DNA from: Streptomyces sp. SirexAA-E
Lineage (GTDB): Bacteria; Actinomycetota; Actinomycetes; Streptomycetales; Streptomycetaceae
Assembly (NCBI RefSeq): GCF_000177195.2
Contig: NC_015953.1
Coordinates: 1,488,001 to 1,552,000, forward strand
DNA: 64,000 nucleotides
Direction: 5' to 3'
In this document: in pieces, positions 5,842 through 7,938 of the stretch
Numbering within the stretch: position 1 is the stretch's first letter
Layout of the letters: each line of letters starts with the position of its first letter
Program-made: the position numbers and the translations under genes
Notes under the pieces: model-generated
Told to the model about the DNA's origin: nothing
The model's input: only the letters and a program-made list of their open reading frames with translations
The model's database searches: none

Positions 5842-6432
5842 ATGACCAGCCGTGTCGTCCTCATCTCTCCCGCGACGAGCCCCGCGCTGCGCCAGGCCCG
5901 GTTCGACGCCGACGGCCCGATCGACGCGGGGGGAGCGGCGCGGGCCCGTGCCGCGGCCGGTTCGCTGCCCCGGGCGCTCCGGGTCGTCACGTCACCCGGT
6001 GCGCGGTGCCGCGGGACGGCGGTGGAGCTCGGACTGCGCGCCGAGGACGCTCCCGAGCTGGCCCCCCTGGACGTGGGCCGCTGGCGCGGCCGGACGCTCG
6101 ACGAGGTCGGCGCCGGCGAACCGGAGGCGGTGGCGCGCTGGTTGTCCGATCCCGCGTCCGCGCCGCACGGCGGGGAGGCGGTACGGGACGTGTGCGCGCG
6201 GGTCGGCACGTGGCTGGACTCGGTGGCGCGGCTGGACGGGCGCACACTCGCCGTGGTCGAGCCCGAGGTCGTGCGGGCGGCCGTCCTGCACGCGCTGGAT
6301 CTGCCCGTGGCGGCCTTCTGGCGTATCGACGTGCCGCCGCTGACCGCGACGGAGCTCAGCGGACGGGCCGCGCGCTGGAACCTACGGCTGGGAAGCCCGC
6401 TGGTCGGGCCGGACACCGCCCTCGCCGACTGA
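5842..6432 (+). CDS. histidine-phosphatase-fold protein lacking catalytic histidines
   Basis: 196 aa with the histidine phosphatase layout, but the N-terminal RHG motif is replaced: VVLISPATSPALRQARFDAD carries SPA where RHG is expected. The second catalytic His is also absent (TLAVVEPEVVRAAVLHAL instead of a V-x-SHG strand). Retained are the central Arg region (TSPGARCRGTA), the L/G-R-W-R-G stretch (LDVGRWRGRT) and the GGE loop (PHGGEAVRD). AGGAGG lies 9 nt before this ATG; an upstream GTG at 5797 is less likely. It converges on cbtA/cbtB. I infer a binding or regulatory rather than a phosphatase role; a link to cobalt/cobalamin is suggested only by position. Confidence 0.72.
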   Translation: MTSRVVLISPATSPALRQARFDADGPIDAGGAARARAAAGSLPRALRVVTSPGARCRGTAVELGLRAEDAPELAPLDVGRWRGRTLDEVGAGEPEAVARWLSDPASAPHGGEAVRDVCARVGTWLDSVARLDGRTLAVVEPEVVRAAVLHALDLPVAAFWRIDVPPLTATELSGRAARWNLRLGSPLVGPDTALAD

Positions 6433-6534
6433 GCGGAGCCGGCACGGGCCCGCCCGTCCGGCGCAGCGATCCCGGTCGAGGAAGCGGCGGTTCGGCTGGC
6501 GGGCGGTGCGGGCCCGTGCCGGTCCGCGGCAGGA

Positions 6535-6574
6535 CGCCGAAGGCCCTCCGGAAGCTTCCGGAGGGCCTTCGGCG
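6535..6574. terminator. perfect 40-bp palindrome, bidirectional terminator
   Basis: Bases 6535-6554 are the exact reverse complement of 6555-6574, centred on AAGCTT. It lies between the convergent phosphatase-like gene and cbtA. No T-tract follows, as is usual in Streptomyces. Confidence 0.8.
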
Positions 6575-6602
6575 TGCGGTGCGTCCCGCGTCCCGGAAGG
6601 AC

Positions 6603-7373
6603 TCAGCGCGCGGCCGGGACCGCCCGTCCGGGCGCGGCCTGGGCGGGCTTCGGGTTCAGCAGCCGCTCGGCCAGTTCGCCGAGGAACAGGCCGAGTCCGC
6701 CCCACAGCACGGCCTGGATGGCCAGGGCGGAGAGCCGGAAGCGCCAGAGCAGGGTGGCCGGGAAGTCGTCCGGCACCTCGTTGATCACCGGAAGGAACGC
6801 GTAGGCGAGCCCGATCACGACGCCGAAGGCGGCCACCGCGACGACGGTCGCGTACCAGGCGCCGAGCCGGGGGGCGAGCCGCTTGCCGAGGAGGGTGGCG
6901 GCGATCGCGAGGAGCACGCTGAGGACCATCATCAGGAAGTACAGCGCCGTGCGCTTGCCGATGGTGTCGGGGTCACCGACCGCCGGCGGGTTGACGGGGT
7001 ACTTCAGGTACGGCACGACGTACACGGCCAGCAGTGCGCATCCGGACAGCAGCAGGGCGGTCGCCCGGGGGCCGAAGCGCCCGATGCGGCCGAGCGCGAA
7101 GCAGAAGGCGAGGGCGGCGATGCCGCCGAAGGCGACCCCGTAGACCAGGATGCCGGTGGCGAGACCGGCCGTGGACTGCAGGGAGCGGGAGACGACTTCG
7201 ACCTCGTGCTCGTGGGCGCCCCCGTGGGAGTGCGCCTGGGCCTCCTCGAGGCCGATCGCGCTGTCGACGCCCGGCTCCCCGAGGAAGTAGGCGACGACCA
7301 GGGCGAGCACACCGGCGGCGAGACCGGCGAGCATGCCCCGCACGAGGAGGTTTCTTACGGTTGCGGAGTTCAT
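6603..7373 (-). CDS. cbtA: CbtA-type cobalt transporter subunit
   Basis: 256 aa with about six hydrophobic segments starting at residues 8-32. A His-rich loop (AHSHGGAHEHEVEVV, about 47-61) follows the first segment and is suited to metal binding. CbtA and CbtB form a predicted cobalt uptake system that is often controlled by cobalamin riboswitches. The gene follows cbtB by 20 bp and must share its transcript. The cobalamin riboswitch upstream of cbtB supports the assignment. Confidence 0.85.
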   Translation of the reverse strand: MNSATVRNLLVRGMLAGLAAGVLALVVAYFLGEPGVDSAIGLEEAQAHSHGGAHEHEVEVVSRSLQSTAGLATGILVYGVAFGGIAALAFCFALGRIGRFGPRATALLLSGCALLAVYVVPYLKYPVNPPAVGDPDTIGKRTALYFLMMVLSVLLAIAATLLGKRLAPRLGAWYATVVAVAAFGVVIGLAYAFLPVINEVPDDFPATLLWRFRLSALAIQAVLWGGLGLFLGELAERLLNPKPAQAAPGRAVPAAR

Positions 7374-7393
7374 GGTGTGCGGCGTCCCTCAGG

Positions 7394-7615
7394 TCAGTGG
7401 CAGGGGAAGCCGAGCAGGTGGCGGGCGTCGTGTACCCACTCGTGGACGCCCGTGCCGCTGAACACGGAGGTGGCGCCCTGTTCGGCGCCGACGAAGTACA
7501 GGAGGATCAGCATCAGGATGCCGAAGAAGACCGCCCAGGGTGCTATCGCCTTCAGCGGCAGCGTGGCGGGTACGACGGGTGTGGTGGCTGTCGGCTGAGC
7601 GACGTGCTGCGCCAT
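7394..7615 (-). CDS. cbtB: CbtB-type cobalt transporter subunit
   Basis: 73 aa with one membrane helix (about 22-42: AIAPWAVFFGILMLILLYFV). It has a C-terminal motif of spaced histidines and a cysteine (GVHEWVHDARHLLGFPCH) characteristic of CbtB. I chose the ATG at 7615, with GAGGAGG upstream, over the longer frame to 7675. It is the first gene of the cbtB-cbtA operon, downstream of a cobalamin riboswitch, so expression should fall when adenosylcobalamin is plentiful. Confidence 0.87.
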   Translation of the reverse strand: MAQHVAQPTATTPVVPATLPLKAIAPWAVFFGILMLILLYFVGAEQGATSVFSGTGVHEWVHDARHLLGFPCH

Positions 7616-7654
7616 GGCAGGGCCTCCTCTGGGAGTTCGCGTCCCATATCGGTG

Positions 7655-7785
7655 GTGCACAAGGACGACGGCCACGGGTCTGACTCACGAGGCGCCCCAA
7701 GGGCCTCGCACACAGTGGCGCGACCGTGCCGGGTTCCCACCGGCTTCCGTCTCGCCGTCGTCATATCGGCACGACGGTACCGCGT
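7655..7785 (-). promoter_or_regulatory. cobalamin (B12) riboswitch ahead of cbtB
   Basis: Read on the minus strand, the region carries conserved cobalamin-riboswitch blocks in order: GGAAGCCGGTGGGAACCCGG, then CACGGTCGCGCCACTGTG (the B12-box core, about 7711-7730 on the plus strand), a short local hairpin, then GAGTCAGACCC (about 7677-7690). The outer arms 7754-7762 and 7664-7672 are perfectly complementary and could close the element. It ends about 40-50 nt before the cbtB ATG, with the ribosome site in between. Boundaries are approximate. Confidence 0.88.
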
Positions 7786-7938
7786 GACGGGTGCATGGCC
7801 AAGGGCGTGCCGTTCGGCGTGACCTTCCTCTCCCGCCGGTGCCTTCGCCCGGCGCCGGCGCGCGGGTCCGAAGCCGAGCACCGGTGTGCAGCGGCGCACG
7901 TCGCTGCCCGACAGACCCGGGTAGCCCTGGACCCGCCG

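Follow-up and report, generated by a model that had tools for sequence, protein, structure and literature searches.

What is a protein with the architecture of a histidine phosphatase, stripped of the residues that make such proteins enzymes, doing next to the genes of a predicted cobalt importer? The question is raised by a locus of Streptomyces sp. SirexAA-E that lies within a 64,000-nucleotide stretch of contig NC_015953.1 (positions 1,488,001 to 1,552,000, hereinafter the window, in which position 1 is the first nucleotide). The gene in question, here denoted HisP, occupies positions 5842..6432 of the forward strand, encodes a protein of 196 amino acids and faces the cbtB-cbtA pair encoded on the reverse strand. 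CbtAB is a predicted cobalt transporter (PMC2667541) whose components and control are poorly known. It is reasonably probable that HisP is a non-catalytic accessory partner, regulatory or assembly-related, of the CbtB-CbtA importer; in other words, HisP probably assists or regulates cobalt import and does not act as an enzyme.

The HisP open reading frame starts with the ATG at 5842, ends with the TGA at 6430-6432 and is preceded by an AGGAGG ribosome-binding site. By sequence profile, the protein belongs to branch 1 of the histidine phosphatase superfamily (Pfam His_Phos_1, PF00300; 80.6 bits, cut-off 21.7); the match begins at profile position 20, that is, after the RHG motif. An AlphaFold model built with 54 orthologues (predicted local distance difference test score 92.1, predicted template modelling score 0.89) predicts the alpha/beta fold of this branch: the Foldseek matches listed are phosphatases and mutase-like enzymes of the histidine phosphatase fold, the best being 6s2q (E 2.1e-14); a template modelling score of 0.85 was obtained with 6e4b, which is annotated as a putative alpha-ribazole phosphatase. 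The VIA-align comparison with 4ij6 gives Z 24.7 and a root-mean-square deviation of 2.2 over 190 aligned residues. Alignment with canonical members from the same genome places Ser9-Pro10-Ala11 (codons 5866..5874, forward strand as all HisP codons) in lieu of the catalytic RHG with its nucleophilic histidine, Glu140 (6259..6261) in the position of the second catalytic histidine, and Pro75 (6064..6066), ahead of the W.G motif, where the catalytic acid is usual. The first of the two phosphate-binding arginines is gone, so that Arg55 (6004..6006), the arginine of the RC..TA motif, is the only one kept; the HGGE loop (residues 109-112, 6166..6177) is retained as well, as indicated by motif reading and the conservation count. 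The initial annotation, in which HisP was described as a catalytically dead protein with the histidine phosphatase layout but without both catalytic histidines, is thus borne out; its statement that the Arg and GGE loops remain holds for Arg55 and HGGE but misses the loss of the other arginine and of the acid.

The replacements themselves are conserved. In 55 Streptomycetaceae proteins, Ser9 is found in 49, Pro10 in 47, and Ala11 and Glu140 in 52 each, alongside Arg20 and Arg55 (54 each) and Glu112 and Arg145 (all 55). Judging by this conservation, the altered site is maintained within this set and is not drifting, and these conserved residues would form a working pocket. The ratio of nonsynonymous to synonymous substitution rates is 0.27-0.40 across eight orthologue pairs; given these values and the full frames in many genomes, a decaying pseudogene can be rejected for HisP of the window. 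Single broken copies do occur, as in genome G023 (genomes and loci are given by our G and L numbers, families by f numbers), where the pieces lie in different frames.

Loss of catalytic residues extends across the family. After exclusion of duplicates and of rows shorter than 140 amino acids (including the shortened copies L050, L190 and L191), 163 rows were collected, of which only four contain a normal RHG motif: L219, L221 and L222 from the SirexAA-E genome itself and a distinct gene adjoining the dead copy at L256. The remaining 159 rows, 113 of them from Streptomycetaceae, lack RHG by construction. In a quick tree of a set thinned to 128 rows, in which many forks are weakly supported and several branches are long, all four RHG rows fall outside the family branch, which comprises 118 rows and is split from the canonical rows with a Shimodaira-Hasegawa-like approximate likelihood ratio test (SH-aLRT) support of 95. 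Both catalytic histidines are missing in 124 of the 159 rows, including all 113 from Streptomycetaceae and 11 of the 46 others (L204, L278, L285 and L306, with a gap at one motif, are counted as lacking that histidine), and the first arginine is kept in a single row, L039, which is not linked to cbtA. Each catalytic histidine requires at least five changes of state on the quick tree. The states at the RHG and second histidine motifs are diverse: SHA/THP in most f6 rows, CQG/AS(A or S) in Pantoea and Rahnella, SSA/AAP in Agrobacterium, CSA/SHT in Bradyrhizobium, AHA/ASA in Burkholderia and VAG/VAA in G202. Some intact but shortened frames beside cbtBA (L050:6453-7589, L190:7620-8084 and L191:7095-8006) even lack the Arg55 segment.

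Two further observations concern the variation of the family. Partial matches resembling the shortened HisP forms are present in several other genomes among the 100 relatives that were compared. In three f6 genomes (L182, L184 and L185) with a same-strand cbtB-cbtA-HisP arrangement, AG replaces HG and the second histidine is lost; this loss is probably independent.

The association with the transporter genes was traced from both sides. In the window, cbtA (6603..7373, reverse strand; PF09490, 251.8 bits) and cbtB (7394..7615, reverse strand; PF09489, 38.7 bits) are adjacent, both score above the Pfam cut-offs and together make up a CbtAB locus. Among the best 30 of the HisP matches in the 100 relatives, the window included, 27 have cbtA or cbtB within 1.5 kb, 26 of these with cbtA and one (G024, locus L009, away from the contig end) with cbtB alone; the three loci with neither gene nearby are L002, L008 (at a contig end) and L013. 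All 30 lack RHG and the second histidine. Starting from the transporter, HisP is found within 3.5 kb at 59 of the 80 named Streptomycetaceae cbtA loci, with 37 divergent and 22 convergent arrangements, the latter resembling the window; the other 21 loci, some on short contigs, have no HisP within this distance. The convergent loci form one branch of 18 rows in the thinned tree (SH-aLRT 89). In a class-wide survey, HisP occurs within 3 kb at 45 of 108 cbtA loci, namely 14 of 17 in the window's own family, 19 of 25 in f6, 5 of 11 in f19, 4 of 25 in f20 and, for eight small families together, 3 of 11. Of these 45 HisP genes, 28 are located 3' of cbtA on the same strand, and all 28 are outside the window's family (28 of 31 there). 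In genomes G174 (L344:4856-5887) and G024 (L057:7066-8248), HisP is divergent from cbtB without an adjoining cbtA, which is encoded on another contig; these layouts may mean that HisP is tied to CbtB in particular. G055 retains both HisP and cbtA at a distance of about 1 Mb from each other, and HisP has no neighbouring cbtB there either.

Co-occurrence across genomes agrees with adjacency. Among 86 genomes of the same genus, a near-type cbtA, defined by a best match of at least 59% identity, is accompanied by HisP in 51 of 51 cases (40 full-length and 11 partial matches). Genomes without near-type cbtA, among which G014, G020 and G342 are counted because their only cbtA is remote (at most 41% identity), have HisP in 2 of 35 cases among the matches listed, namely in G020 and, as a fragment at a contig end, in G050. 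As identities of 44-50% are already reached by related paralogues, the best match was read in 25 of the 33 negatives: in 22 it is 67-98% identical to a paralogue group that is not linked to cbtAB, and nearer there than to any linked form, and for G002, G034 and G043, the tree places it in the unlinked group. The remaining 8 of 33 have only weaker matches. Taken with the three adjacency surveys, these counts reject chance adjacency.

The linkage also occurs outside the actinomycetes. Plasmid records were searched at the protein level, which gave 51 with a HisP match and 87 with a CbtA match; from these, 18 and 8 selected regions, respectively, were opened. Of the regions opened through HisP, 16 of 18 have cbtA nearby; cbtB is annotated in 12 of these 16 trios, and the four unannotated records show a cbtB match beside cbtA. 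The hosts are Granulicella, Bradyrhizobium, two Paracoccus, Agrobacterium, Rahnella, Pantoea, Burkholderia, Caballeronia, Shinella, Rhizobium, Novosphingobium, Mameliella, Aminobacter and two Streptomyces, that is, besides the actinomycetes, alpha-, beta- and gammaproteobacteria and an acidobacterium. The cbtA and HisP frames overlap by 4 bases in Pantoea and abut in Bradyrhizobium. The two plasmid regions without cbtA carry a Shinella copy and a Streptomyces mirabilis copy; in Shinella sp. WSC3-e (L201:5950-6585), a family member with CRG/THA motifs is located beside adenosylcobinamide amidohydrolase and ABC transporter genes, with no cbtAB. In the initial annotation, the tie between HisP and the transporter genes was one of position only; neighbourhood conservation in all these surveys, together with the co-occurrence in 51 of 51 versus 2 of 35 genomes and the trios in several phyla, takes it beyond position. 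Both conditions that the initial annotation named as refuting it thus turned out in its favour: a normal RHG motif is confined to four rows outside the family branch, and proximity to cbtAB is conserved.

The surroundings of the trio vary. In Granulicella, it adjoins cobN. In five plasmid operons (Agrobacterium tumefaciens, Rahnella, Pantoea, Klebsiella and Agrobacterium vitis), nitrile hydratase genes are followed by an accessory protein gene and then by cbtB, cbtA and HisP, and in Aminobacter, nitrile hydratase is encoded close to the trio. The nitrile hydratases of all six contain CTLCSCY, a motif of the cobalt type of this enzyme (PMC2667541). Association of the trio with a cobalt-type nitrile hydratase points to cobalt supply rather than to cobinamide or CobC chemistry. 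Furthermore, because cbtBA stays the same while the context changes from B12 to nitrile hydratase, the transporter rather than any user of cobalt appears to be the partner of HisP.

Under the reading of HisP as a non-catalytic accessory partner, the protein would touch CbtA or CbtB from the cytosol and would tune or stabilise cobalt import. A more specific proposal, which is only tentative, is that CbtB, CbtA and HisP make up a three-part cobalt uptake module distributed over several phyla, in which HisP might be the cytosolic regulatory subunit, its altered pocket reading a small ligand or the state of the transporter and gating cobalt entry; catalysis could then have been lost several times as selection acted only on binding or scaffolding. 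Several observations weigh against an accessory role. In the class-wide survey, HisP is absent within 3 kb at 63 of 108 cbtA loci, with some flanks truncated by contig ends, and two families, f28 (0 of 14) and f15 (0 of 5), have none near cbtA at all. Of the eight plasmid regions opened through CbtA, six lack HisP and two have it, and cbtBA is located beside nitrile hydratase without HisP in Rhizobium ruizarguesonis and Caballeronia zhejiangensis (L316:1012-4687 and L319:1944-4726), which provide a set of natural controls. The co-occurrence counts ignore kinship, and co-loss of adjacent genes is in part one deletion, so that the Fisher value calculated from these counts is not to be taken as a probability; 11 of the 51 positives are partial or broken HisP matches, and G020 keeps HisP with a remote cbtA only. 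Finally, 27 of the 159 rows, all outside Streptomycetaceae, keep both histidines, which leaves room for weak catalysis in these proteins. That many cbtBA loci have no HisP indicates that HisP is optional and that CbtBA evidently can work without it, and suggests that HisP tunes import rather than being essential.

Among the other explanations, the one that fares best, although it is unlikely, is that HisP is a cytosolic cobalt chaperone or insertion helper that passes Co2+ from CbtBA to cobaltochelatase or nitrile hydratase. The presence of the trio beside cobN and within nitrile hydratase operons would fit such a function. However, in the 46 rows from outside Streptomycetaceae and the window protein, there is no cysteine and no invariant histidine among the columns that are at least 75% conserved, the best-conserved histidine, H109, being present in 40 of 47 rows only; moreover, the five nitrile hydratase operons already carry an annotated accessory protein. 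It is more doubtful still that HisP is an enzyme with unusual residues, such that the SHA/THP rows are slow phosphatases and the Streptomycetaceae forms are remnants or have acquired new chemistry. Most of the 27 rows with both histidines also have Arg55 together with an aspartate at the position of the catalytic acid, and SPA and Glu140 are conserved within Streptomycetaceae, all of which an unusual enzyme would accommodate. Against it, the first arginine is present in no cbtA-linked row of the family and, among linked rows, occurs only in the distinct RHG gene of L256; the histidines have changed state repeatedly, and some copies have dispensed with the whole Arg55 segment. That HisP is a hitch-hiking neighbour unrelated in function to cobalt is very improbable: paralogue groups without cbtAB nearby exist, as do many cbtA loci without HisP, but the same partner is found in several phyla in same-strand, divergent and convergent layouts, and the presence of HisP tracks near-type cbtA in the 86 genomes. 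Least likely of all, and close to refuted for HisP of the window, is an alpha-ribazole phosphatase (CobC) or another enzyme of the cobalamin pathway, the CobC and cobinamide emphasis of the initial annotation, which would accord with the B12 riboswitch ahead of cbtB and with TIGR03162 (CobC) being the best NCBIfam match but is rejected given that this match reaches 68.2 bits against a cut-off of 162.9, that the catalytic residues are lost, that the trio accompanies nitrile hydratase, and that a bifunctional RNase H/acid phosphatase from the same genome is closer to the CobC model (133.5 bits, likewise under the cut-off).

The nearest annotated families are branch 1 histidine phosphatases, CobC and the RNase H/acid phosphatase fusions, with which HisP shares the fold, Arg55, W.G and HGGE; unlike CobC and the fusions, HisP has no RHG, second histidine or acid and is linked to cbtBA. 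In an NCBIfam scan of HisP and five linked relatives, none reached the cut-off of any model. That CbtAB handles cobalt is taken from the literature, namely from the prediction of the transporter (PMC2667541) and from Methylococcus, in which knock-down of cbtB improved growth, as did lower cobalt in the medium (PMC13108547). Published descriptions of CbtAB, in the portions accessible to us, name CbtA and CbtB only, whereas here a third gene accompanies both. The closest parallel comes from Leptospira: species with cbtBA also have an additional histidine phosphatase branch 1 protein, hps_1, of the cob I/III cluster, which in the available text is tabulated apart from cbtBA and left uninterpreted, the parallel being one of co-occurrence (PMC4758666). 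A Mycolicibacterium plasmid cluster also lists a histidine phosphatase family protein, in a paper that mentions a plasmid-borne cbtB at another point; the available text offers no interpretation of either (PMC13188929). Searches of an open-licence literature collection and the text portions read gave no description of a phosphatase-like protein as part of CbtAB, the Leptospira co-occurrence being the nearest.

If HisP is indeed such a partner, the third component of CbtAB is concealed under the label 'histidine phosphatase family protein', a misleading name for a large group of genes, and its recognition would give a handle on cobalt supply in B12 makers and in nitrile hydratase strains. The family would also be a clear case of repeated pseudoenzyme evolution. 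The fold of PTPRU, an animal protein tyrosine phosphatase, differs from the histidine phosphatase fold. PTPRU is a pseudophosphatase in which the phosphatase domain is kept without catalysis (PMC7320164), and it shares only this principle with HisP.

The control of the two transcription units at the window locus appears to be separate. The cobalamin riboswitch ahead of cbtB is located at 7653..7799 on the reverse strand (RF00174, 36.3 bits, E 1.4e-05, gathering score 31.5) and extends 14 bases past position 7785, where the initially annotated interval ends; the convergence of HisP on riboswitch-led cbtB-cbtA is as originally described. The nearest named cbtA is from Streptomyces (91% identity). 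Between the convergent genes, a perfect 30-base inverted repeat (6540..6569), found by eye and followed by no T run, is a possible shared terminator stem. In two surveys, Streptomycetaceae HisP is invariably on the strand opposite to cbtBA (59 of 59 and 14 of 14 loci) and thus lies outside the riboswitch-led transcript, so that its expression would not depend on the B12 riboswitch. At the gathering score, cbtB is preceded by a cobalamin-class riboswitch at 6 of the 15 loci of a mixed set and at 4 of 19 Streptomycetaceae loci; when nine divergent loci were rescanned at a lower threshold, all nine showed a sub-threshold match ahead of cbtB on the cbtB strand. Scanning of two nitrile hydratase loci (L206 and L207) detected no cobalamin riboswitch.

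The SirexAA-E genome (7.41 Mb, one contig) contains 13 PF00300 matches, of which only HisP and the paralogue L227 begin at profile position 20-21, the other 11 starting at positions 1-5, a pattern that speaks against a chance effect. The RNase H/acid phosphatase of this genome, one of the 13, bears RHG and is identified with 561.7 bits against a cut-off of 326. A CbiC match at 3.85 Mb indicates that at least part of B12 synthesis is encoded elsewhere in the genome.

Dead or mixed relatives are not confined to cbtAB loci. A second dead paralogue of the same genome (G000:C1:1131985-1132542; L031:7968-8543, reverse strand) has AAA at RHG and Glu at the second histidine, with no cbtAB in the stretch read; its group is present in many Streptomyces genomes, including cbtA-negative ones. 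A third paralogue group, found in some Streptomyces (L034, L036 and L045-L048), has CTP, CAT or CAG at RHG and no cbtAB within the 15 kb read. In Streptomyces sp. NBC_01306 (L256, from about 1625) and in G023 (L346:1048-1692), a canonical RHG gene adjoins dead HisP on the same strand, the dead copy in G023 being itself broken. Upstream of the second dead paralogue, both L031 and L033 contain another small gene that resembles it (about 145-168 amino acids).

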